A DNA stretch of 64,000 nucleotides, taken from positions 186,001 through 250,000 of the forward strand of contig VGHE01000002.1 of the NCBI GenBank assembly GCA_016868315.1, read 5' to 3'. The DNA is from Betaproteobacteria bacterium (GTDB lineage: Bacteria; Bdellovibrionota_B; Oligoflexia; Silvanigrellales; Silvanigrellaceae). A program made the position numbers and the translations under genes. The notes under the pieces are model-generated. The model had not been told where the DNA came from. It searched no databases and saw only the letters and a list, made by a program, of their open reading frames with translations. Numbering within the stretch: the first letter of the stretch is position 1; every line of letters begins with the position of its first letter. Of this stretch, positions 5,556 through 48,059 are shown in pieces.

Positions 5556-6872
5556 ATGGCCACCAATGTATTGATGCCGCAGATGGGTGAATCCATCAAC
5601 GAGGGAACGCTGACCAAGTGGCACAAAAAAGTCGGTGACAAATTACAGCGCGAAGAGATTCTTTTTGAAATCTCGACCGACAAAGTCGACACCGAAATTC
5701 CGTCGCCGGTGAGCGGTGTGCTTGTTCAGATCCTAGCTAACGAAGGCACGGTTGTGGCCGTGAACTCGGTTGTGGCCATTGTCGATGAAAGCGGTGCGGG
5801 TGCATCGGCTGCAGCTCCACAAGCGAAAGTTGCACCAGCAGCCGCTGCGGCACCTGCAGCAGTCAAGCCAGCCCCTGCGGCCGCTGCTCCAGCCCCTGCA
5901 GCTGTCGCTGAGGTTGAGGACTCCAACCGCAATGTGAAGAGCAGTCCGCTTGTGCGTAAAATGGCTGCGGAACACAACATCGATCTCAGTAAAGTTGAAG
6001 GCACCGGTGAAAACGGCCGCATCAACAAACAAGATCTCGTCACATACATGGAAGCTGCAAAGAGCACCGGCAGTGGGTTGGTGGCTTCGGCTGCGCAAGC
6101 TGCATTCTCTGCGGTGAAGACAGCGTCTGCTGCGGCGGTGGATTCCACCGGAGGCCAGATCTCTGGTCTTGTAGATGGCGTTCGTGTTGAGCGCGTGCCC
6201 ATGACCCAAATGCGCAAGAAGATTGCTGAGCATATGGTCATGAGCAAACGCACCAGTCCTCATGTGACCAGCGTAATTGAAATTGATCTTCAAAAGATCG
6301 TCGACCTACGTGCAAAATTCAAAGACAAATTTGAATCACTGCACGGCTTCAAACTGAGCTTCATGCCGTTCTTTATGCACGCAGCTCTCGAGGGTATTAA
6401 AGCTGTTCCGATCGTGAACGCATCTGTCGATGGTGACACCATCGTCTACAAGAAAGACGTCAACCTCGGTATTGCCGTCGCTCTCGACTGGGGTCTGATT
6501 GTACCGGTCATCAAGAACTCCACAGAACGTAGTTTTGTGGGTCTTGCCCGTGAGCTCGAGTCGCTTGCAAACAAAGCACGCAACAAAAAGCTTGCGCCCG
6601 ACGATGTGAAGGGTGGAACTTTCTCGATTTCGAACTTCGGCGGGTTCGGCACCATCATCGGTCAGCCCATCATCAACCAGCCTCAGGTCGCGATTATGGG
6701 GATTGGTGCCATGGTCAAGAAGCCAGTGGTGGTGAATGATGCAATTGCGATTCGCACAACCTGCCACGTTGTTCTGAGTTTCGACCATCGTGTGATCGAC
6801 GGTTCCGACAGTGGCAAGTTCCTTTCTACGGTTAAGAACACCCTCGAAAATTGGTCCCTGCCGGTGGTGTGA
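5556..6872 (+). CDS. 2-oxo-acid dehydrogenase E2, dihydrolipoamide acyltransferase (2-oxoglutarate or branched-chain type)
   Basis: A 438-residue protein with the classic order: lipoyl domain (1-78, with the lipoylated Lys43 in STDKVDTE), an Ala/Pro-rich linker (~85-125), a peripheral subunit-binding domain (~130-165), a second linker, and the catalytic acyltransferase domain (~205-438) ending with the active-site pattern DHRVIDG. The start MPQMGESI together with STDKVDTE is the signature of OdhB/SucB and branched-chain E2 proteins rather than of pyruvate E2. Without the E1 gene I cannot decide between the two. It is co-transcribed with lpdA, and E2 and E3 are subunits of the same cytoplasmic complex. 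Confidence 0.92.
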   Translation: MATNVLMPQMGESINEGTLTKWHKKVGDKLQREEILFEISTDKVDTEIPSPVSGVLVQILANEGTVVAVNSVVAIVDESGAGASAAAPQAKVAPAAAAAPAAVKPAPAAAAPAPAAVAEVEDSNRNVKSSPLVRKMAAEHNIDLSKVEGTGENGRINKQDLVTYMEAAKSTGSGLVASAAQAAFSAVKTASAAAVDSTGGQISGLVDGVRVERVPMTQMRKKIAEHMVMSKRTSPHVTSVIEIDLQKIVDLRAKFKDKFESLHGFKLSFMPFFMHAALEGIKAVPIVNASVDGDTIVYKKDVNLGIAVALDWGLIVPVIKNSTERSFVGLARELESLANKARNKKLAPDDVKGGTFSISNFGGFGTIIGQPIINQPQVAIMGIGAMVKKPVVVNDAIAIRTTCHVVLSFDHRVIDGSDSGKFLSTVKNTLENWSLPVV

Positions 6873-29431: not shown

Positions 29432-31836
29432 TGCACCGCATCCACCTCATGGAATCCCGGAAAAGAAATGTCAGTTCGATAGTGCGGATGAACCGCGTGG
29501 GCATCTTTGAAGGAAATCTGCGCGAGTGCGGCATAGGCATGCGCCACTGCGTGCTCCTCTGTGTTTGCAGCTGCTAACACTCCCGCAATTCGGCCGGCAC
29601 GCGTTGAGTTGTTGGCATCCACTCCCGAAGGAATCCACGTCGTGTTTGCAGGCCAGGCGCTCGGAAGTGCAAGCGTGCGTTGCGGAGCATAACCCTCGGG
29701 GTACTCCGGAGACGCAACAACAACGAAACAACGTTTTAATCCATCGTGCTTCAGGCGATGCGGCGCCGCAGGGTTGAGCCAGGGGTTTGCAGCCCACGGT
29801 TCATTTTTCGCAGTCAGCCACATGCCGACAATCAGGTCGCGCCCAAGGCCAGGCAAAATGACTTGTGATTCCGGATCGCCCATGCGGCAATTGTATTCCA
29901 GAACCTGAGCATTTCCCTGACCATCAAGCATCAGCCCGGCAAACAAAAAGCCACGGTAATGCGTACCGGTATTCTTCAATTCTTTCAGGGTCTGTTTGAA
30001 GATTGTGTGGACCTGCGTTTCAAGAGACTCAGGCAATGACACGGGGCACACTGCACCCATGCCTCCGGTGTTTGGTCCGGTTTGTTGGTTGTTGCGCCGC
30101 TTAAAATCCTGCGCGAAGGGCAGCAAAACGTAATCTTCACCATGGCACAAGGCGATGGCAGAGATCTCTTTGCCTGGCAGCAAGCGCTCCACCAGAAATT
30201 GAGCCTCTCCGGTTTCCCGGGTGTAGGTTCGAACAGGTAATGTTTCGAGTTCGCGCATCCAGCCTGGAAGGTTTGATTCAAAGTGCGCGACGGCTGAACG
30301 GAGATCATCCTCGTTCATCACCAAACACACGCCTTTACCCGAGGCAAGCGACTCATATTTCAAGACGTAGGGAAAGCGCTGTAGTATCTCGGCGTGCGCA
30401 TTCTTAGCAGTTGGCAAAGCCGATTTTTTGAGTTCTTCCCAGCCGATCATCCAGGCTTCAGGTGTTGGGCAATGAGCCTGGTTGAGGATTTTCTTGGTGT
30501 GAATTTTTGAAACCTCAAGCCTGACCCCCTCGAGATCGGGAGCCAAGCAATGAATTCCAGCCTCGCGCAGTTGCTCGGCAAGACCCTGGGCAATCGGCAT
30601 CTCTGGTCCAAAGACGGCCCAGCCGATGTTCTCTCGGCAGCATTTTTCAATCAGATTCTTGCTACTCAATGCGCCCAAGCTGAGTTTTTTCTCCCCGTTC
30701 CAGCTTTCGCGCCCCGGCCAGCAATACACCACATCCACTTCAGGCTGACGCTCGAGCAGTTGAGCGAGAGTGTAGTCGCGGCCACCACTGCCGACCACAA
30801 GCACCCTTGCAGGAAGCCGCTGCTGAGCTTCACTGCGGCGCATCTGACCGGGGTCAACGGGCCAGGGAATGAGGTGAGGTGCGACCAAATCCCAAGGCTT
30901 CATTTGCGGGAAGAGTCGCTCAAAAAGAAGCTGATAACGCTGCGCAGTACCTTGGGCGAGTGCGTGAGTGAAATTGCTGTCAGCCCATATCGAATTTAGG
31001 ACAAATGGGAGGTTGTTGTCCGATTGCACTGCGCTGGATGTGCGCTTTGAAAGCGCTGCTTGAACCTCCTCACGCAGCCACTCTTTCGAGTAGTGCTCGA
31101 TGCGTCCTTGCTCAAAGGCTTTCAGGTCTACGAAGCGTGATGCATCAGGGGTGTGGATTTCATCGACCAGCATGAGCTGGCCTTTTTCATCGAGCCCAAA
31201 CTCGTACTTGGTGTCCATGAGAAGTAAATTTGCTTCTGAGCACAGCTGTTGACCCCTCAGGAAGAGTTTCTGCGCCGTTGTGGCAAGACCACGTATGAGT
31301 TCCTGTGCTTGTTTCTCTGCTTCCACATGCGCACACAGATCGTTCTCGTTCAACCATTGTTGCACATGCATACAGGCTTGTGCTGGGGTGACGAGTTCAT
31401 CGTGACCATACGCGGCTTTGGTTGTGAAAGTCACCAGAGGTTCAGCGAAGCGGTGGTATTGTTGCAATCCTTCAGGAAGCTCGATACCCCACTTACTTTT
31501 GATTTCAGCAGCACCTCCTTTCTGGTAGCTGCGCCAAAGACTTCCTGCCAATACCCCGCGTGCAATCACCTCAAGCGGCAGAACGCGTCCCGATTTTACA
31601 AGCATGCTTTGTGCATCGAGACAGCCAAGAAAATGGTTGGGGATGATGTCACGTGTGTTTGCAAAGAAGAACACCGACATGGCCTGCAGAATATGGCCTT
31701 TATTTTCAATTTCCAGGGGAAGAACACTATCAAAAGCCGACACGCGGTGTGTGGAGGTCAGAATACGTTGCGTTGAATGGATTGCAGTATTGATGCGAAC
31801 TTTCCCGAATTGGACTGCAAAAAGCGACGTATTCAT
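29428..31836 (-). CDS. bifunctional PurC-PurD fusion: SAICAR synthetase / GAR synthetase
   Basis: An 802-residue fusion. Residues 1-~310 are SAICAR synthetase (PurC, step CAIR + Asp): STHRVSAFDSVLP, LEVIARGVLAGSLW, LMDTKYEFG and LVDEIHTPDASRF. Residues ~343-802 are GAR synthetase (PurD, phosphoribosylamine + glycine), an ATP-grasp enzyme: VLVVGSGGRDYTLAQ, FGPEMPIAQGLAEQL, YVLKYESLASGKGV, TGGMGAVCP and EYNCRMGDPESQVILP. PurD proteins normally read GSGGREHAL at the start; here RE-H is RD-Y. The two activities are non-consecutive steps, so channelling is not obvious. Coupled by ATGA to pyrF upstream and purN downstream. Confidence 0.9.
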   Translation of the reverse strand: MNTSLFAVQFGKVRINTAIHSTQRILTSTHRVSAFDSVLPLEIENKGHILQAMSVFFFANTRDIIPNHFLGCLDAQSMLVKSGRVLPLEVIARGVLAGSLWRSYQKGGAAEIKSKWGIELPEGLQQYHRFAEPLVTFTTKAAYGHDELVTPAQACMHVQQWLNENDLCAHVEAEKQAQELIRGLATTAQKLFLRGQQLCSEANLLLMDTKYEFGLDEKGQLMLVDEIHTPDASRFVDLKAFEQGRIEHYSKEWLREEVQAALSKRTSSAVQSDNNLPFVLNSIWADSNFTHALAQGTAQRYQLLFERLFPQMKPWDLVAPHLIPWPVDPGQMRRSEAQQRLPARVLVVGSGGRDYTLAQLLERQPEVDVVYCWPGRESWNGEKKLSLGALSSKNLIEKCCRENIGWAVFGPEMPIAQGLAEQLREAGIHCLAPDLEGVRLEVSKIHTKKILNQAHCPTPEAWMIGWEELKKSALPTAKNAHAEILQRFPYVLKYESLASGKGVCLVMNEDDLRSAVAHFESNLPGWMRELETLPVRTYTRETGEAQFLVERLLPGKEISAIALCHGEDYVLLPFAQDFKRRNNQQTGPNTGGMGAVCPVSLPESLETQVHTIFKQTLKELKNTGTHYRGFLFAGLMLDGQGNAQVLEYNCRMGDPESQVILPGLGRDLIVGMWLTAKNEPWAANPWLNPAAPHRLKHDGLKRCFVVVASPEYPEGYAPQRTLALPSAWPANTTWIPSGVDANNSTRAGRIAGVLAAANTEEHAVAHAYAALAQISFKDAHAVHPHYRTDISFPGFHEVDAVQ

Positions 31837-32669
31837 GAGGGTCTCCGAGCTTGTGAAGTCAAAGAGTCGAGTTCAGTCTGCATGGATTCGAATCGCTGCT
31901 TCATTTCCATGGGCTTGATGTTTCCGCCCTCACAAATGCTGCGGCTGACAGGAAAAATAATGTCTTGTGCCAGCTCACGGGTCAGAGCCGTTGCCTGTGC
32001 GAGTGTGACGCCCTGTGCACCGACACCCGGCATCAGCAGGGGCGAGGTGTTTTTCTTAAAAATAGGATGCGCAAGCGCATCAGCTCGATTCGCACCAACA
32101 ACAAGCCCGATGTGCGGCGCGAGGGCTCCGCTCGGGTCGAGTGCCAGATGGGTTTCGGCACAGGCCTCGGCGATCTCGGCATAACTCTGTCCGAAGGCTG
32201 AAAGTTTGTTTTGTGGATACTCACTGGTGGCGCCCAGCACGAAAACTCGTGCAGTTTCACCACGCATGCTCAGTGCCTTTTGGAGTGAGGAACCAATAAT
32301 GTGCTCTCCCATGAAGGGGTTCACAGTGATGCCATCGACGCAAAGATGGTCAAACGCAAATTCAAGATACTGGTTGAGGCTGTTGCCAATCTCGCCAAAC
32401 TTGCCATCGAGAAGAACCTTTGTGTGAGGCGACAATAGCTCGCAGGCGTGTTCGAGCTTGTCCATTCCCAGGCGCCCCCAACGAATAAAGAAGGCGAGGT
32501 TGATTTTCACCCAGTGTGGTTTGGTTTCAAGAAGATCGAAGAGCTCGACGTGGTTCTCATAGCAATCGAGCCAATCCTTTAAAAGTCCCGACTTGGGCAT
32601 CGGGTCAACGCCCAAGCACAAAATACGGTTTCGACTTTTTCCAGATACTTGAGTTGTTGGCAGATTCAT
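31833..32669 (-). CDS. pyrF: orotidine 5'-phosphate decarboxylase family protein
   Basis: A 278-residue TIM-barrel protein of the OMP decarboxylase family, type 2-like by length. It keeps LCLGVDPMP at the first strand, KINLAFFIRWG, and PLLMPGVGAQG near the phosphate-binding end. The catalytic strand reads LLDGKFGEIGNS: the canonical pattern is D-x-K-x-x-D, and the last Asp, supplied to the neighbouring subunit's active site, is Glu here. It is embedded between purK and purCD with ATGA overlaps on both sides, the only pyrimidine gene in the purine operon. Either the Glu is tolerated or the protein has changed function. Confidence 0.8.
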   Translation of the reverse strand: MNLPTTQVSGKSRNRILCLGVDPMPKSGLLKDWLDCYENHVELFDLLETKPHWVKINLAFFIRWGRLGMDKLEHACELLSPHTKVLLDGKFGEIGNSLNQYLEFAFDHLCVDGITVNPFMGEHIIGSSLQKALSMRGETARVFVLGATSEYPQNKLSAFGQSYAEIAEACAETHLALDPSGALAPHIGLVVGANRADALAHPIFKKNTSPLLMPGVGAQGVTLAQATALTRELAQDIIFPVSRSICEGGNIKPMEMKQRFESMQTELDSLTSQARRPS

Positions 32670-41066: not shown

Positions 41067-42374
41067 ATGGCTTTGAAGAAGCAAAATCCGGTAAATCAGG
41101 ATGTTGAGGATTCAATTGACTACCTCAACCTGCTGGTGACTTCTGGGCTGGCGCTGGGCGAGGTGGCCGATTCCGATGAGTTACTCAATATGATGGCCGA
41201 AACGGCCATGAACATGGGCAACTGCGAGGGCTGCACGGTCTACGAAGCAGACGAAGGGCTGCTGAGGTTCCGCCTCACCCGCAACCGGGTTTTGGAATCG
41301 CGCGGAGTTAAGGCACCTCTTAAAAACTACACAGTTCCAATTGACCTGAAAACAGCTGCAGGCTTTGTGGCGACATCCAAAAAGCCGCTCAACATTCCTG
41401 ACGTGTACAATCTGCCCCCGGAATCGCCGTTTTCCTTTAACCCATCGTTTGATGTGATGACCAACTATCGCAGTCGGTCGATGTTGGTGATTCCCATGTG
41501 TGACTCACGTGGTAATGTGCTCGGCGTGCTGCAGCTCATCAACCACTTGGTGGGTGAAAACTTCAGCGGCGATGTGACTCCATTTCCGCAGCGGGTTGAA
41601 GCTTATTTGAAGGCACTTTCGAGCCAGTGCGGCGTAGTGATGCGCAATATCCGTATGGCGGAAGAGCTGAAGAAATCGCGCATCGAGACTGTTAAAAAGT
41701 TCGTGAAGGCCTCCGAGTATCACGACACAGACACGGGCGGTCACATCGAGCGTATGAGCCGCTACAGCGTGTTGTTGTACCGTGAGTTGGGATTCGATGA
41801 CTCCTCCTGTGAGGTGATGCGACTGGCGTCGATGCTTCACGATGTTGGCAAGATCTCCACGCCTGATGCCGTTTTGAAGAAACCTGGTCGACTTACGCCC
41901 GAAGAATTTGAAATCATGAAATTGCACACGGTGAAGGGATATGAGGTGCTTAGGGGCGCGGATTCACCCTTCCTCGATATGGGCGCGACTATTGCGTACA
42001 CACACCATGAAAAGTGGGACGGCTCGGGCTATCCGCGTAAACTCAAGGGCGAAGACATTCCACCAGAGGGTCGGGTCGTGGCTCTCGCTGATGTGTTTGA
42101 TGCGCTGTGCTCGCGGCGTGTTTACAAAGAATCATGGCCCATTGATAAGGTTTTCGAAGAACTGAGAAACTGCAGTGGCAGTCATTTTGATCCGCAGATT
42201 GTTGAAATATTTTTTGATAATCTGGATGAAATACTCGAGATCAAAGCGCAGTTCCCCGCAAGTGATCCGCCTACAACCGCGGTGCCTAGCCCCGCAGCGA
42301 AAGTCGAGGCGCAAACCGAGACCACAGCAGCTCCTGCAAGCGAAGTTCAGGCCGAAATCAAGAAGGCGTCTTGA
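41067..42374 (+). CDS. GAF-domain HD-GYP phosphodiesterase (c-di-GMP degrading)
   Basis: A 435-residue cytoplasmic protein with an N-terminal GAF sensor domain (~20-190) and a C-terminal HD-GYP domain (~210-390). Catalytic marks are EYHDTDTGGHIERMS, MLHDVGKIS, HHEKWDGSGYP (the GYP motif) and LADVFDALCSRRVY. Such proteins hydrolyse c-di-GMP to GMP or pGpG. The start at 41067 has AGAGG before it; an upstream in-frame ATG at 41004 lacks one. After the HD-GYP domain there is an Ala/Pro/Thr-rich tail of about 40 residues. A sigma-28-type promoter upstream suggests co-expression with late flagellar genes. Confidence 0.9.
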   Translation: MALKKQNPVNQDVEDSIDYLNLLVTSGLALGEVADSDELLNMMAETAMNMGNCEGCTVYEADEGLLRFRLTRNRVLESRGVKAPLKNYTVPIDLKTAAGFVATSKKPLNIPDVYNLPPESPFSFNPSFDVMTNYRSRSMLVIPMCDSRGNVLGVLQLINHLVGENFSGDVTPFPQRVEAYLKALSSQCGVVMRNIRMAEELKKSRIETVKKFVKASEYHDTDTGGHIERMSRYSVLLYRELGFDDSSCEVMRLASMLHDVGKISTPDAVLKKPGRLTPEEFEIMKLHTVKGYEVLRGADSPFLDMGATIAYTHHEKWDGSGYPRKLKGEDIPPEGRVVALADVFDALCSRRVYKESWPIDKVFEELRNCSGSHFDPQIVEIFFDNLDEILEIKAQFPASDPPTTAVPSPAAKVEAQTETTAAPASEVQAEIKKAS

Positions 42375-42399
42375 CAATCGACGCGAGACCACTTACCCT
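42371..42399 (+). promoter_or_regulatory. candidate promoter of the argG-pyrDE leader
   Basis: A perfect TTGACA (42371-42376) overlapping the HD-GYP stop codon, then 17 bases, then TACCCT (42394-42399). A TATTAT at 42399-42404 overlaps it. Confidence 0.45.
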
Positions 42400-42431
42400 A
42401 TTATGAACATTTTTCATCGCGGGGTTGGCTT

Positions 42432-42518
42432 ATGTCGTTCGCTGGAAAGAGCGATCTCAGACTCGAGGCAGGAAAGACTGCCGACCTCCATGGTATATTT
42501 TTAGAAAACCCGCGTTGA
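42432..42518 (+). CDS. attenuator leader peptide (28 residues)
   Basis: ATG at 42432, with GGGG seven bases upstream; it ends at TGA 42516-42518, inside the loop of the terminator hairpin. The last codons before the stop are Asn-Pro-Arg, and they form the 5' arm of the stem. A ribosome reaching the end would therefore prevent the hairpin from forming. Translation has not been shown; the evidence is its position. Confidence 0.5.
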   Translation: MSFAGKSDLRLEAGKTADLHGIFLENPR

Positions 42519-42532
42519 GCGGGTTTTTTTTT
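42505..42532 (+). terminator. strong intrinsic terminator (attenuator) upstream of argG
   Basis: A 9-base stem AAAACCCGC/GCGGGTTTT (42505-42513 with 42519-42527), loop GTTGA, and a tail of nine T (42524-42532). Confidence 0.88.
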
Positions 42533-42569
42533 GGCCTGATTTCGTCACCGTCTGGGGAGATTGTTGCGC

Positions 42570-44231
42570 ATGAGTTCTTACATGAAAGTGTCATCGTACG
42601 AAGGTCGCAAAGGTGAGATTCGCAAAGTTGTTCTTCTCTATTCTGGCGGTCTTGACACCAGCGTCATGCTCAAATGGATTCAAGATGAATATCAGGCTGA
42701 AGTGATCGCTTTGACCATTGATATCGGTCAGCAAGCTGACAACCTCGAAGAGATCCGCCAGAAGGCACTGCGCCTGGGTGCAGTGAAGGCTGTTGTTGTT
42801 GATGCCAAGAATGAGTTTGCATACGAATACCTCGCCAAGGGCATCAAGGCGAATGCTCGCTATCAAGGTGATTACCACCTCGCCACACCACTCGGACGTC
42901 CGCTTCTGGCCAAACTTGCAGTTGATGTTGCGCGAGCCGAAGGCTGCGACTGCATTGCCCATGGTTGCACGGGTAAAGGGAACGACCAGGTGCGGCTCGA
43001 GGGCAGCATTCTCACGCTCGCACCCGAAATGAAAATCATTGCACCTGTGCGCGAATGGGGCATGGGTCGCGATGAGGAGCTCGAATACGCCCGCAAGAAC
43101 AACATCCCAGTGAAGCAAACAGTCGATTCTCCCTACAGCTACGATGACAACATGTGGGGAATCTCGGCAGAGGGCGGAGAAATCGAGAACCCTGCTCTGG
43201 TTCCCCCGCTCAAAAATATTCTCCAAATCTGTAAGCCCATCGAAGAGACACCCAATGATGCTGTGACGGTCACGTTGGGCTTCCTGAAGGGGTTGCCCGT
43301 GCAGCTCAACGGCCAGGATCTCGGTTTGGTCGCTCTTATTGCTCAACTCAACGAATTGGGTGCCTCGCATGGTGTCGGTGTGACGCATCACATTGAAGAT
43401 CGTGTTGTTGGTTTGAAAGTGCGTGGCATCTACGAGGCGCCGGCTGCAAGCGTTATTGTGCGTGCGCACGAGACTCTCGAAAAATACGTGTGCACCCGCC
43501 AGGAAAACGAATTCAAAACCATTGTTGACCAAAAGTGGGGCTATCTCTGCTACGGCGCGCAGTGGTACGAACCCCTGATGCACAACCTCAATACATACAT
43601 TGATGCTGTCAACGAGAAGGTGACTGGAACCGTAACTCTGCGTCTGTTCAAGGGACGCGCAGAGCCTGTAGCTGTGGAAACACCCAACAGTCTATTCGAC
43701 GAAAAACTTGCGACCTTCATGAAGAGTAATGCATTTAATCAGAATGCATCTGCTGCGTTCACGGAAATCTACACAATGCAAATGCGTATGGCTCGCGAGA
43801 CCGAGCGCTATGCGCTGATTTCAATTGGCAGCATGGAACAGAAGCAGCGATTCTTGCCTTTGGTTTCTAAACTTGCAGAAAGTGGTTTTGTTCTTTTCGC
43901 AACTGAAGGAACACACGCTGTGTTGCAGAAAGCAGGCGTGCCTGCTGTGTGTGTCTACAAGGTCTCTGATGCAAACAGAAAGCCCAACCTGCTCGATCTC
44001 CTGAAGCAGAACCGCTTCGACCTGATCGTTAATGTGATGAGTCCGGAAAATAATACAGTTGAAGTGCGCGATGGAACTGAAATTAGAAAGTGGAGCGTCA
44101 TCAACGGCGTTCAGCTTGTCAGCGAGTACGATGTGCTTATGAATATCTGTGAACGCTTCAAGAATCAGGTTCGTAAGCCAGCTGCAGTTCGCGGTGAGCA
44201 TCATAAGCCAGCGCTTGTGAACGGAGTTTGA
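42570..44231 (+). CDS. argG: argininosuccinate synthase fused to a C-terminal MGS-like allosteric domain
   Basis: A 553-residue protein. Residues 1-~405 are argininosuccinate synthase (citrulline + Asp + ATP): P-loop LLYSGGLDTSV, GCTGKGNDQVR, KQTVDSPYSYDDNMWGIS, and GVTHHIEDRVVGLKVR. Residues 414-530 form a complete MGS-like domain: YALISIGSMEQ, GFVLFATEGTHAVLQKAGV, LIVNVMSPENN, IRKWSVINGVQLV. This fold ends CarB, where it binds UMP, IMP and ornithine, and also occurs in PurH. ArgG normally stops at ~400-450 residues, so this is a fusion that suggests nucleotide or ornithine feedback on arginine synthesis. The ATG at 42570 has GGGGAGA nine bases upstream. First gene of an operon with pyrD and pyrE. 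Confidence 0.92.
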   Translation: MSSYMKVSSYEGRKGEIRKVVLLYSGGLDTSVMLKWIQDEYQAEVIALTIDIGQQADNLEEIRQKALRLGAVKAVVVDAKNEFAYEYLAKGIKANARYQGDYHLATPLGRPLLAKLAVDVARAEGCDCIAHGCTGKGNDQVRLEGSILTLAPEMKIIAPVREWGMGRDEELEYARKNNIPVKQTVDSPYSYDDNMWGISAEGGEIENPALVPPLKNILQICKPIEETPNDAVTVTLGFLKGLPVQLNGQDLGLVALIAQLNELGASHGVGVTHHIEDRVVGLKVRGIYEAPAASVIVRAHETLEKYVCTRQENEFKTIVDQKWGYLCYGAQWYEPLMHNLNTYIDAVNEKVTGTVTLRLFKGRAEPVAVETPNSLFDEKLATFMKSNAFNQNASAAFTEIYTMQMRMARETERYALISIGSMEQKQRFLPLVSKLAESGFVLFATEGTHAVLQKAGVPAVCVYKVSDANRKPNLLDLLKQNRFDLIVNVMSPENNTVEVRDGTEIRKWSVINGVQLVSEYDVLMNICERFKNQVRKPAAVRGEHHKPALVNGV

Positions 44232-44233
44232 AA

Positions 44234-45217
44234 ATGCAGTGGATGCCTTTGGCTGCGCTCAAGCAGAAGATTTTGGGCGCTGGCGGTTTCGTTAACGCCC
44301 ATGCGCACTTCGATCGTGCTTATTCCGTCACGCCTGCTGATCTTCCTGGTGCAAATGCAACAGTTGAACGGGCGCTGCAGGAGAAGTGGCAGTTGGTTGA
44401 TGCGTGGAAACGCTCAACCTCCGAAGACGATTACTTCTCGCACATGACCTCAGCGCTGCGTGGGCAACAAGAATTTGGTGTGCGCACCGCGCTGACTTTT
44501 GTAGACTGCGATCCGGTCGCAGGAACGCGCGCTTTGAGTGCTGCCATGCGTGCCAAGGAGTATGCTGCAACACAGCTGCAGATGAGGCTCCTCTTAGCTT
44601 GTCAGACCCTCAAGGGCGTTCTTCACCCGGAGGCGCGTCGCTATTTTGAAATGGCGCTCGAGAAGGTAGATGTGATTGGAGGTTTGCCCGGCGCAGACAA
44701 GGGGCGTGAGGAAGAGCATCTCGATGTTCTTCTCGCAGCAGCGAAATCCAGCAAAAAGCGCGTTCATGTTCACGTTGATCAAAACAACGATCCGGCCGAG
44801 CGCGAGACCGAACAGTTGGCACGCGCAGTCATACGGCATGGCCTTGAAGGCCAAGTGACTGCCGTTCATGGCATTAGCATTGCCTGTCAGACCAAGGCTT
44901 ATCGCCAAGATCTCTACAAGCTCTGTCGTGACGCCGGCTTGAGCTTTGTGGCGTGTCCCGGCGCGTGGCTCGATGCGCGCCGCAATGAAACCCTCACCCC
45001 CACGCACAATGCTGTCACTCCCATCGATGAAATGATCCCTGCGGGTTTGTGTGTGGCTCTTGGCTCGGACAACATCTCCGACATCTACAAACCGTTTGCC
45101 GACGGTGACATGATGACCGAGTTGCGCATGCTGCTTGAGTCAACCCATTTCTACGACACGCAGGAACTGGTGCGTATTGCCACCGACAATGGTCGCAGGG
45201 TGTTGGGTCTCGACTAA
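44234..45217 (+). CDS. amidohydrolase, cytosine deaminase-like
   Basis: A 327-residue metal-dependent amidohydrolase. Metal-binding motifs are NAHAHFD (H23, H25), VHVHVDQ, a His in TAVHGIS and a catalytic Asp in LGSDNISD followed by PFADGDMM, which corresponds to the cytosine deaminase stretch around its second metal-loop. The HxHxD rather than HxHxR pattern fits deaminases better than dihydroorotase. It lies between argG and pyrD, 2 and 1 bases away, so it should act in pyrimidine metabolism: cytosine deaminase is likely, a non-canonical dihydroorotase possible. GGAG lies 8 bases before the ATG. Confidence 0.75.
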   Translation: MQWMPLAALKQKILGAGGFVNAHAHFDRAYSVTPADLPGANATVERALQEKWQLVDAWKRSTSEDDYFSHMTSALRGQQEFGVRTALTFVDCDPVAGTRALSAAMRAKEYAATQLQMRLLLACQTLKGVLHPEARRYFEMALEKVDVIGGLPGADKGREEEHLDVLLAAAKSSKKRVHVHVDQNNDPAERETEQLARAVIRHGLEGQVTAVHGISIACQTKAYRQDLYKLCRDAGLSFVACPGAWLDARRNETLTPTHNAVTPIDEMIPAGLCVALGSDNISDIYKPFADGDMMTELRMLLESTHFYDTQELVRIATDNGRRVLGLD

Positions 45218-45218
45218 A

Positions 45219-46358
45219 ATGTACAACCCGCTTCTCAGTTATGAAGACAACCTGCGCCAGGGACCCTCACCGGAGTGGAATGCGGAAGGAGTTTTTCCGC
45301 GCATCCACTTCACCGACAAACCGAAGTTTTCCTGCCTTGGGATTCCACTTCATTTGCCATTGGGGATGCCTGCAGGTCCGCTTTTGTCGGCTGCTTATGT
45401 GAAGGTTGCGTTGGAGGCTGGCTTCAGTATGCCTGTGTACAAAACTGTGCGCAGTGCTGCTTGGAAGAGTCATCCCTGGCCAAATGTGTTGAGCGTTGAG
45501 AAATTATCCGACGCATCACCTCGCGTGCGTCCGCTGGCGCAGGTTATCCCGCTGTCGAAAAATGTTTTGGGCGAGCAACTAAAAAACGGACGACTCAGCA
45601 TCACCAACGCTTTTGGGGTTCCGAGTGCTGCTCCTGAACAATGGTCGAAAGACTTTTCATCGTTGCCGGACTTTGCATTTTCAGCGGGAGCTATGAGTGT
45701 TTTGAGCTTTCAGGGTTCGCGCCGGAACGGGCAGGGCTGGAAAGAGTTTCTCGATGACACAACTCTCTGTGCCCGTTTGGCCGCAGAAGCGGTTTCCGCT
45801 CGGGGTGGAAAGCTCCTCGAAATGAACGTGAGCTGTCCGAATGAATCGGGTGCTCCCATTTACACAGATCTCAAGGCTCTGACTGAAGCTCTGGATGCCG
45901 CCGCATTGGCTCTTCAGGACTTCCCTGCGTTGCGCCTGATTGTAAAGCTCGGACAGCTCGAGCCCGAGGCGGTGTTGGCAGTGGTCGAACGCGTGGCTCA
46001 GCGCGCACATGGCATATCGGCAATCAACACTCTCAGTGCAAACATTGTTGATTCAAACGGTCAGCGCGCACTCGGTTCAGGAGCAGAGCATGGTGGTATC
46101 TGTGGTGATGTCATTCGAGATGCTGCGTTAAGCTCTATGCGAAATCTGAGCAGGGCTCGCCAGGCTCTTGGTCTCGACAAAAATGAATTTGCTCTTGTTG
46201 GAGTGGGTGGTTGCTTTACTGCTTCTCATGTTTTTGATTTTCTTGAGGCGGGCGCCGACGTTGTTCACGCGGCAACCGGTGCTATGTGGAACCTCCAGTT
46301 TGCATCCGAGTGTGCGCGCAATTTTGGGGTGAGTTTTTCGGATGGGGAAAAACAATGA
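45219..46358 (+). CDS. pyrD: dihydroorotate dehydrogenase family flavoprotein
   Basis: A 379-residue FMN-binding TIM barrel that oxidises dihydroorotate to orotate. The active-site loop reads EMNVSCPNESG, with a Cys where class 1 enzymes have their base (class 2 has Ser). Other marks are MPAGPLLSAAYVKVAL, LIVKLGQLEPEAV, INTLSANIV and LVGVGGCFTASHVFDFLEAGAD at the phosphate site. A divergent loop follows MPVYKTV. It begins 1 base after the amidohydrolase stop and overlaps pyrE by ATGA. No pyrK partner is nearby. The in-frame ATG at 45135 is rejected since it lies in the previous gene. Confidence 0.85.
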   Translation: MYNPLLSYEDNLRQGPSPEWNAEGVFPRIHFTDKPKFSCLGIPLHLPLGMPAGPLLSAAYVKVALEAGFSMPVYKTVRSAAWKSHPWPNVLSVEKLSDASPRVRPLAQVIPLSKNVLGEQLKNGRLSITNAFGVPSAAPEQWSKDFSSLPDFAFSAGAMSVLSFQGSRRNGQGWKEFLDDTTLCARLAAEAVSARGGKLLEMNVSCPNESGAPIYTDLKALTEALDAAALALQDFPALRLIVKLGQLEPEAVLAVVERVAQRAHGISAINTLSANIVDSNGQRALGSGAEHGGICGDVIRDAALSSMRNLSRARQALGLDKNEFALVGVGGCFTASHVFDFLEAGADVVHAATGAMWNLQFASECARNFGVSFSDGEKQ

Positions 46359-47029
46359 TGAATACGATTCATGATGAAGCGATCCATGGGATTGTCGATC
46401 TTTTCTTTGCAGACCAAATCATCAAGGTTGATTCCTCCAGCCCTTTTCTTCTTTCAAGTGGTGCGAGAGCGCCCATTTACCTTGATCACCGCCGCGCATT
46501 TACCCGTCCCAAATTGCGCCAGCTTTTGGTCAAGACCTGGGCTGTAAAGCTGGAATCTGCCCTCAAGGAAATGAACGTGCGGCCTGCAGATGTGGTCTGT
46601 GTTGGAACCGCGACTGCGGGAATCGCGCCAGCTATGGCATTGGCCACGCATTGGAATGCTCCATTCCTTTACGTTCGGCAGAAGCCCAAAGGGCATGGTC
46701 TGCAGCAGATGGTGGAAGGGGCTTTCGATCCGGCGGCGCCGCATTTGGTTATCGATGACATGCTTACAACCGGGCAAAGTCTTTTGAAGTCTGTTGAGGT
46801 TCTGCAGCATCTCAATACCCGACTTGTCGGTGCAACGACTCTGACCTCGCATTCCCTTGTCAGTGCGCATCGAAAATTTCAGAACTTGAACCTGCCGTTC
46901 GTGAATCTCCTGACCACTTCGGATATCCTGCTCGTTGCCCAGAGTCTTGGGCTGATTTCACAGGCTGATGTCCGCACGGTCATGGCCTGGCTGGAAACGC
47001 TCAGCATGGCCAACGATTCGCTCGATTGA
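46355..47029 (+). CDS. pyrE: orotate phosphoribosyltransferase
   Basis: A 224-residue type I phosphoribosyltransferase making OMP from orotate and PRPP. The PRPP motif HLVIDDMLTTGQSL is clear, preceded by FLLSSGARAPIYLDHRRAF at the N-terminus and GTATAGIAPAMALA with FLYVRQKPKGHG, all as in PyrE. ATG at 46355 overlaps the pyrD stop; a second ATG at 46358 is equally possible. PyrE follows PyrD in the pathway, and its product would be decarboxylated by the PyrF-like protein encoded in the purine operon. Confidence 0.93.
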   Translation: MMNTIHDEAIHGIVDLFFADQIIKVDSSSPFLLSSGARAPIYLDHRRAFTRPKLRQLLVKTWAVKLESALKEMNVRPADVVCVGTATAGIAPAMALATHWNAPFLYVRQKPKGHGLQQMVEGAFDPAAPHLVIDDMLTTGQSLLKSVEVLQHLNTRLVGATTLTSHSLVSAHRKFQNLNLPFVNLLTTSDILLVAQSLGLISQADVRTVMAWLETLSMANDSLD

Positions 47030-47039
47030 GGAACCCAAT

Positions 47040-48059
47040 ATGTTTTTAATTGGATTTGATGTGGGTGGCACTAAAATTGAAGCCACCTTGTTTCGGCTCT
47101 CCGATAAGCCAAACCCGTCAGGAAAAAGTGGGACTTTTGAGTGTGCTCATCCCTCGCGCGGCGTGTTGCACGGAGAAACGCTTGCGAGGCTGCGCGAACC
47201 GACTGAGCGTCACAAAGGATACGATGCGATTGTTGAAAAAATGGCTCGCCTGATCGTGGAAACCTGCGCAAAGGCGCAGGTGCCGATGGCCGAGCTTCAT
47301 GGTGTTGGGCTGGGCTTGCCGGGCTCAATTGACCCTGTTTCGTTGAAGATGCTCAACGGAAATACCATGGTTCTGATTGGCCGCGATTTGGTGGGCGACA
47401 TTCGCAGCAAAGCGAATCTTCCGGAAAAAACACCGATGCGCGCAGAAAATGATGCCAACTGCTTTGCTCTTGCTGAGGCGCTGTGCGGTGCCGGGTTGTT
47501 GCATGCACAGAAGTCAGGAATTCCAGTGCACTCGCATGTTGCGGTGGGTGTCATTCTGGGAACCGGCTGCGGCGGCGGAATTGTTATCCAAGGCAGAACC
47601 TTGCAAGGAGCTCGCGGCGGCGGCGGCGAGCTCGGTCATACAATTCTCTACAAAGAAGGACATCAATGCTACTGCGGACAATCGGGTTGTGCAGAGCAGT
47701 ATCTCTCGGGTCCTGCACTCGAGTCACTGATGGCAACCCGCCACTACAGTCAGCTGGGTGCAGCTCCTCTCAGTGCAAAAGAAATTTTTGAAAAGGCAGA
47801 TGCGGGTGACCCGGCTGCACTGGCTGTTTTGATTAAGTACAGAAATGATTTGGGTCGTTTCCTGGGGAGCCTCACATCGATCTTCGACCCTCACTATTTT
47901 GTGTTGGGGGGAGGGTTGAGCTTGCAGCCCGCAATTTACCAGAACCTCTCTGCAACACTCGCCAACCATACGTTTTTATCCGACAGTCACATTCCCGTTT
48001 ATCAGCATCAACTGGGCGATTCTGCAGGAGGATTGGGGGCAGCCCTGTTATCCCTTTAA
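47040..48059 (+). CDS. ROK family sugar kinase (glucokinase/fructokinase-like)
   Basis: A 339-residue ROK kinase. ATP-binding GFDVGGTKIEATLF at the N-terminus, the catalytic Asp in ENDANCFALAEA, and the zinc motif in HTILYKEGHQCYCGQSGCAEQYLSG are all visible; no N-terminal helix-turn-helix, so a kinase rather than a repressor. It starts 10 bases after pyrE and is probably the last gene of the argG operon. Sugar specificity cannot be read. Its role with nucleotide synthesis is not obvious, other than supplying hexose phosphate toward PRPP (inference). Confidence 0.85.
   Translation: MFLIGFDVGGTKIEATLFRLSDKPNPSGKSGTFECAHPSRGVLHGETLARLREPTERHKGYDAIVEKMARLIVETCAKAQVPMAELHGVGLGLPGSIDPVSLKMLNGNTMVLIGRDLVGDIRSKANLPEKTPMRAENDANCFALAEALCGAGLLHAQKSGIPVHSHVAVGVILGTGCGGGIVIQGRTLQGARGGGGELGHTILYKEGHQCYCGQSGCAEQYLSGPALESLMATRHYSQLGAAPLSAKEIFEKADAGDPAALAVLIKYRNDLGRFLGSLTSIFDPHYFVLGGGLSLQPAIYQNLSATLANHTFLSDSHIPVYQHQLGDSAGGLGAALLSL

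Follow-up and report, generated by a model that had tools for sequence, protein, structure and literature searches.

Genes and Features of the argG Locus

The window (the whole stretch of 64,000 nucleotides that was analysed) belongs to a genome of 3.24 Mb, G000. Of the organisms with names, Silvanigrella, Fluviispira, Spirobacillus cienkowskii and other Silvanigrellales are closest to it. The window carries argG, an amidohydrolase gene, pyrD and pyrE in one operon, preceded by a leader with a promoter, a short open reading frame (ORF) and a predicted terminator (Table 1). The ArgG protein scored 496 bits with the argininosuccinate synthase model NCBIfam NF001770 (cut-off 334) and retains the fold and the motifs of this enzyme. 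The MGS domain of Escherichia coli CarB binds UMP. In the MGS of ArgG, five of the six E. coli CarB residues which we take to form the phosphate-contacting nucleotide site are kept (K954, T974, T977, K993 and N1015), and the sixth is changed. The domain has been lost again in the ArgG of Spirobacillus (L012, L013). The CarB proteins of six Silvanigrellales genomes (L166-L171) have a degenerate C-terminus with no recognisable MGS.

The amidohydrolase matches cytosine deaminase and N-isopropylammelide isopropylaminohydrolase. Its metal ligands and second-sphere histidine (HxH, H, D: H25, H27, H182, H214 and D281) do not vary among 27 operon proteins. The catalytic glutamate of cytosine deaminase is aligned with glutamine, which means that the two mechanisms cannot agree in every detail. 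Residues F91, H180 and R300 are also conserved in the 27 operon proteins but not in four homologues whose genomes encode the transcarbamylase and have no argG adjacent to the amidohydrolase gene. The PyrD and PyrE scores fall below the family cut-offs. PyrF, which completes UMP synthesis, is encoded outside the operon, and its score is above the cut-off. The ROK-family kinase gene had been counted as an operon member in a preliminary description of this DNA. It does not belong to the conserved unit: in another genus the gene lies 2-3 kb (about 2.3 kb) from the operon, and it is not adjacent to the operons of Patescibacteria.

Table 1. Positions of the leader elements and genes within the window.
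Feature	Position	Strand	Remarks
Promoter	42371..42399	+	-35 TTGACA 42371-42376, 17-nt spacer, -10 TACCCT 42394-42399; read from sequence
T5 run TTTTT	42410..42414	+	about +5 to +9 of the predicted transcript
Shine-Dalgarno motif of the leader ORF, GGGG	42421..42424	+	G-rich motif, same place in all relatives
Leader ORF, MSFAGKSDLRLEAGKTADLHGIFLENPR	42432..42518	+	ATG at 42432, 28 codons; equivalents in 11 leaders
U-rich tract, TATATTTTT	42494..42502	+	presumed UTP-sensitive pause; directly 5' of the hairpin; T-rich in all relatives
Intrinsic terminator (predicted)	42505..42532	+	folding, covariation, relatives
argG fused to MGS domain (UMP-binding type)	42570..44231	+	MGS in the C-terminal part
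Amidohydrolase, NCBIfam PRK06886, cytosine deaminase/AtzC relative	44228..45217	+	profile and alignment
pyrD, divergent dihydroorotate dehydrogenase	45207..46358	+	profile search
pyrE, divergent orotate phosphoribosyltransferase	46355..47029	+	profile search
ROK-family sugar kinase	46968-48059		operon end in this genus
pyrF, OMP decarboxylase, outside the operon	31833..32669	-	TIGR02127, 122.7 bits

All of the leader elements named in the preliminary description were found in place on direct reading of the sequence. The promoter overlaps the stop codon (42374) of an upstream HD-GYP gene on the same strand; its -10 hexamer is weak, with 3/6 consensus matches, and transcription is predicted to start at A42406. 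The terminator stem is formed by AAAACCCGC and GCGGGTTTT (42505-42513/42519-42527), and the loop GTTGA (42514-42518) contains the leader stop codon TGA. Nine T (42524-42532) close the terminator, which is separated from the argG ATG by 37 nt including the Shine-Dalgarno motif GGGGAGA (42554-42560). On folding of the leader, the stem belongs to the minimum free energy structure, and in isolation it has an energy of -13.4 kcal/mol. Across the 64-kb window, no other terminator-like hairpin precedes a gene on its own strand by 100 nt or less. A generic promoter and terminator scan of the window picked up neither the leader promoter nor the hairpin, the latter probably because the scan prolongs the stem with bases of the T run. 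No curated Rfam covariance model (T-box, PyrR site and others) matched the window at gathering thresholds. The whole leader does not fold more stably than its shuffles (z -1.24), and thus no large structured riboswitch is suggested.

Conservation of the Leader in Silvanigrellales

Homologous leaders were collected through ArgG matches, and the upstream regions were aligned and tabulated. Complete leaders were obtained from 11 relatives, and all share one layout; they represent at least three genera and both GC-rich and AT-rich genomes. The promoter has the form TTGACx-17-TAnnnn wherever both boxes were located (the -35 box is unassigned in L005 and L006) and is followed by a 5' UTR of 24-41 nt. 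The leader ORFs have 21-29 codons, start with ATG or GTG and are preceded in all relatives by a Shine-Dalgarno variant (GGGG, AGGG, GAGG, AAGG or AGG). The hairpins, each with a T tract, have energies from -13 to -18 kcal/mol and lie 37-88 nt before the ATG of argG. The leader stop codon is located between 12 nt within the hairpin and 9 nt upstream of it. Reading 12 nt into the stem distinguishes the window ORF from its relatives; in the same frame, the close relative L010 has its stop right at the stem. For L011, whose contig ends here, the hairpin and the U tract are the visible part, and in one Silvanigrellales genome (G004, L015) the leader was not seen.

The preliminary description had regarded loss of the leader start in relatives as speaking against an attenuator; the start is kept in the 11 leaders. 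It had also let GCGGGGTT (42419-42426) pair with the stem arm as an alternative structure. For this pairing no matching complement was found in the other genera, and GCGGGGTT was rejected as an anti-terminator: the GGGG that it contains (42421-42424) is the leader Shine-Dalgarno motif, matched in every relative.

When dinucleotides were shuffled, 0.6-9% of cases per lineage gave an ORF that has a Shine-Dalgarno motif and ends no more than 15 nt from the hairpin. The product over seven lineages is about 1e-12, or 5e-6 if the Shine-Dalgarno motif is dropped, for a pattern picked after inspection and lineages that are not fully independent. In the aligned stems, 97.5% of the cells are paired, both sides have changed in five of the eight pairs, and the covariation score exceeds those of all 500 shuffles. 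Furthermore, the leader ORFs of two close pairs of genomes have no indel, and their changes are mostly non-synonymous, while in each pair both other frames are broken by stops in one member or more. Judged from these pairs, the leader frame is kept and the peptide is not; nor is the peptide conserved across the 11 leaders. This would be the requirement of a leader in which only the moving ribosome matters.

The U-rich tract comprises 9-15 T in the final 20 nt 5' of the hairpin in all relatives. It is conserved as composition and not as codons, which fits a UTP-dependent pause. A run of 4-7 T near +5 is present in seven of the eight lineages; in the AT-rich ones it is weak when compared with shuffles. 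Among the carA leaders of six sampled relatives, five were read by eye, and no similar attenuator was seen there.

Proposed Mode of Action of the Leader

Coupling of leader translation to transcription up to a terminator is known from the rph-pyrE and pyrBI operons of E. coli, and pyrBI/pyrE logic is familiar from enteric bacteria. The Silvanigrellales leader resembles them in that leader ORF translation, as predicted here, reaches an intrinsic terminator preceded by a U-rich tract and located a few tens of nucleotides before a pyrimidine gene, so that the hairpin would be masked by a ribosome close to the leader stop. It differs in having its own leader peptide of 21-29 codons, instead of rph or the 44-codon pyrL, in preceding argG and not pyrB or pyrE, and in its hosts, Bdellovibrionota and Patescibacteria.

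The polymerase would initiate near 42406, and the leader ORF of the nascent RNA would be translated at once. When UTP is scarce, the polymerase would slow in the U-rich tract, allowing the ribosome to catch up. Once at the leader stop, which lies inside the hairpin or immediately 5' of it, the ribosome would block the terminator, and argG, the amidohydrolase gene, pyrD and pyrE would be transcribed. With plentiful UTP, the polymerase would outrun the ribosome, and transcription would end at the T run. As the stop codons lie at the foot of the stem, a ribosome close behind the polymerase would cover the 5' arm. Translating ribosomes in E. coli repress an intrinsic terminator almost completely when it follows a stop codon by a few base pairs (PMC4824070). 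The prediction of a translation-coupled attenuator of the pyrBI/pyrE type, put forward in the preliminary description, is well supported by comparison, namely by the 11 leaders, the shuffles and the stem covariation. That UTP is the effector we infer from the genes of the operon and from the conservation of the U-rich tract.

One alternative differs in the effector: a translation-coupled attenuator that senses general translation or another signal, such as the rate of leader initiation. Coupling geometry is indeed the sole strictly conserved feature, and U-richness upstream of the hairpins is moderate, the genomes of genus g5 being AT-rich. However, the U tract is enriched over the rest of the leader even in the GC-rich genus, and the genes served are pyrimidine genes. 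We consider a signal other than UTP unlikely.

Amino-acid attenuation, in which a ribosome stalled on a scarce charged tRNA (Arg, or the Phe and Ile of U-rich codons) prevents termination, is very improbable. In the window, the leader ORF has CGT (Arg) before its stop, from which sensing of Arg-tRNA had been proposed in the preliminary description, and Phe or Ile codons end many leaders. No control codon is conserved, however: Arg is private to this species, and the other ten leaders end in Phe, Ile, Leu or Ser. A conserved alternative pairing of the trp or his leader type was not found either, and a ribosome held up before the stop codon would leave the hairpin uncovered, because the two adjoin. 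There is hardly any room for an ordinary terminator of the HD-GYP gene combined with a chance ORF and an unseen downstream argG promoter: the HD-GYP stop codon does lie on the same strand about 130 nt before the hairpin, but promoter, ORF, U tract and hairpin persist among genera whose upstream sequence varies, the ORF and stem are conserved above chance, and the 37 nt between the T run and argG already accommodate a Shine-Dalgarno motif.

A second UTP-sensitive element may be considered beside the predicted attenuator. The codBA and upp promoters of E. coli are UTP-sensitive slippage promoters. Most Silvanigrellales leaders share with them a T run soon after the transcription start; the run begins at about +5 and not at +2 or +3. 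Its action through slippage is speculative.

Pyrimidine and Arginine Enzymes in Silvanigrellales

In profile searches, aspartate transcarbamylase was not found over the cut-off in any of 14 Silvanigrellales, whereas 20 of 30 class and order relatives outside the family have it at 180 bits or more (p 3e-5). With the exception of YgeW in one genome, each weak transcarbamylase match that was typed proved to be an ornithine carbamoyltransferase. The match next to carB in this genome is an ornithine carbamoyltransferase (398 bits) and forms a carA-carB-argF cluster, by which carbamoyl phosphate seems to be committed to citrulline. Dihydroorotase was not found over the cut-off in any of 33 genomes with either model, while the control models were positive. 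The absence of pyrB and pyrC is a statement at profile cut-offs and in incomplete genomes. A strong sub-threshold match of the dihydroorotase model in G004 is a hydantoinase. The congener G002 (L154) has a sub-threshold match of this model at 141 bits.

The argH gene was not found over the cut-off in this genome, two congeners, G004, both Spirobacillus genomes and the partial genome G013. It is present in about half of the Silvanigrellales. In G007 and G012, which have argH, ArgG-MGS is the only ArgG found and may consequently also serve arginine synthesis. An arginine deiminase relative occurs in all Silvanigrellales except G004 and the partial G013, and pyrF was found in all of them. On the closed chromosome of Spirobacillus G010, transcarbamylase, dihydroorotase and argH were not found over the cut-off, nor was a full-length CarB; the argG-amidohydrolase-pyrD-pyrE operon and pyrF are retained.

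Proposed Route from Citrulline to Pyrimidines

On the best reading of these gene sets, citrulline and aspartate would be converted via argininosuccinate into dihydroorotate and ornithine, bypassing PyrB and PyrC. ArgG would couple citrulline with aspartate to argininosuccinate. Argininosuccinate cyclises readily. The six-membered product would correspond to dihydroorotate in which the ornithine nitrogen replaces the C2 oxygen, and hydrolysis at C2 would yield dihydroorotate and ornithine. The amidohydrolase would act on the cyclised argininosuccinate, or would itself cyclise and then hydrolyse it; in an alternative order, hydrolysis to carbamoylaspartate would come first. PyrD, PyrE and PyrF would finish UMP. 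Citrulline could be supplied by carAB-argF or arginine deiminase, and the MGS on ArgG would add feedback by UMP. The two enzymatic steps and this feedback are what we infer from sequence comparison. With AtzC (N-isopropylammelide isopropylaminohydrolase, PDB 2qt3), the operon amidohydrolase shares a superfamily branch. AtzC strips an alkylamine from a pyrimidine-like ring, a reaction of the type proposed here; its substrate is a triazine, and its identity to the amidohydrolase of the window is low.

Compared with the canonical pathway (CarAB, PyrB-PyrF), homologues of PyrD, PyrE and PyrF are shared, as is a predicted MGS-type UMP feedback like that of CarB. PyrB and PyrC were not found, ArgG and the amidohydrolase stand in their place, and the MGS is on ArgG. 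Judged from the sequences, control of the pathway appears to have moved to ArgG at both levels, transcription through the attenuator and allostery through the MGS. The committed step controlled by UTP and UMP would then, on the best reading, be that of argG. The preliminary description spoke of an arginine/pyrimidine operon; the operon is borne out, while the label understates the case, since argG is probably a pyrimidine gene here.

The alternative is that argG is an ordinary arginine gene sharing an operon with pyr genes, and that pyrB and pyrC are present and too divergent for detection. The synthase fold and motifs kept by ArgG agree with such a role, as does the argH of several relatives. 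On the other side, neither this genus nor Spirobacillus has an argH over the cut-off, and the same holds for most Patescibacteria searched; the linkage of ArgG to the amidohydrolase and pyrD/pyrE holds across phyla; and ArgG bears an MGS of the UMP type. Divergence of pyrB and pyrC is countered by the profile searches, which recover pyrF in nearly all genomes searched and pyrB in the class relatives. This combination appears improbable.

The citrulline route is more fully stated as follows. In Silvanigrellales and a large group of Patescibacteria, ArgG-MGS and the amidohydrolase would replace the transcarbamylase and the dihydroorotase, ornithine would serve as a catalytic carbamoyl carrier, arginine could be the sole source of carbamoyl, and UTP attenuation together with UMP binding would control ArgG. 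We hold this to be moderately probable. As an explanation of the locus as a whole, the attenuator combined with a citrulline-to-pyrimidine operon is the best available and, in our judgement, reasonably probable.

To our knowledge, de novo pyrimidine synthesis is held to use aspartate transcarbamylase and dihydroorotase everywhere, and we know of no earlier description of pyrBI/pyrE-type control in Bdellovibrionota or Patescibacteria. Neither the proposed route nor attenuation in Silvanigrellales was found reported in the open-access literature, subscription journals and preprints being mostly outside its coverage. Confirmation would make the route a new one. Closest to it in print is the arginine-fed carbamoyl phosphate of Thermococcus kodakarensis, in which arginine and citrulline feed pyrimidine synthesis without CPSase via carbamoyl phosphate and carbamoyl-aspartate (PMC13260591). 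Arginine and citrulline would be the feed in both cases; in Thermococcus citrulline is cleaved to carbamoyl phosphate, whereas here citrulline itself would be the donor. If true, the route explains how UMP can be made in Patescibacteria and in parasites like S. cienkowskii, which apparently have neither enzyme; the arginine used may come from their hosts. The predicted attenuator provides independent evidence that selection regulates argG as a pyrimidine gene, and it extends pyrBI/pyrE-type control to further phyla with a self-contained leader peptide.

Occurrence in Patescibacteria and Origin of the Operon

Wherever the flanking sequence of a Silvanigrellales genome is long enough, its gene order is argG-amidohydrolase-pyrD-pyrE, and many Patescibacteria have this order too. 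Aspartate transcarbamylase was over the cut-off in none of 23 Patescibacteria with ArgG-MGS versus 16 of 45 others (p 6e-4), in a comparison of related genomes of unknown completeness and with a sub-threshold match in G131 outside the typed set. No argH was found over the cut-off in most of the Patescibacteria searched. PRK06886 alone was ruled out as a marker of transcarbamylase absence: among 12 Patescibacteria with this protein, four also have a true transcarbamylase, and in those four no argG is adjacent.

In the ML tree, ArgG of Silvanigrellales falls within the Patescibacterial ArgG-MGS clade (100/99 for the group of 22), which indicates lateral transfer, most simply from Patescibacteria. 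A 3.7-kb contig of a Bacteriovorax MAG (L082, G068), whose bin may be contaminated, also carries an argG-MGS of the Patescibacterial type.

The leader design (a TTGAC promoter and a short ORF stopping at a hairpin) precedes the ArgG-MGS gene of six Patescibacteria. It was found for 6 of 42 ArgG-MGS genes against 4 of 563 control ORFs, and an upstream terminator for 19 of 42 against 36 of 563, the contrast being inflated by operon-internal genes among the controls. Among the Patescibacterial argG genes without MGS, 12 of 27 have an upstream terminator and none has a leader ORF by the same test, so that a terminator alone is not diagnostic.

Other elements were observed upstream of Patescibacterial argG genes. 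Four leaders, L052 (about 5841-5885), L053, L056 and L058, have a short hairpin CTAGTG-CACTAG and, after it, a run of 8-9 T; this hairpin seems to lie close to the transcript's 5' end. A second terminator follows about 100 nt further on, so that the two form putative tandem attenuators. In three further Patescibacteria (L057, L061 and L070), a common motif GACGCC-(loop)-GGCGTTTTTCTATGGTC lies between the argG promoter and the terminator.
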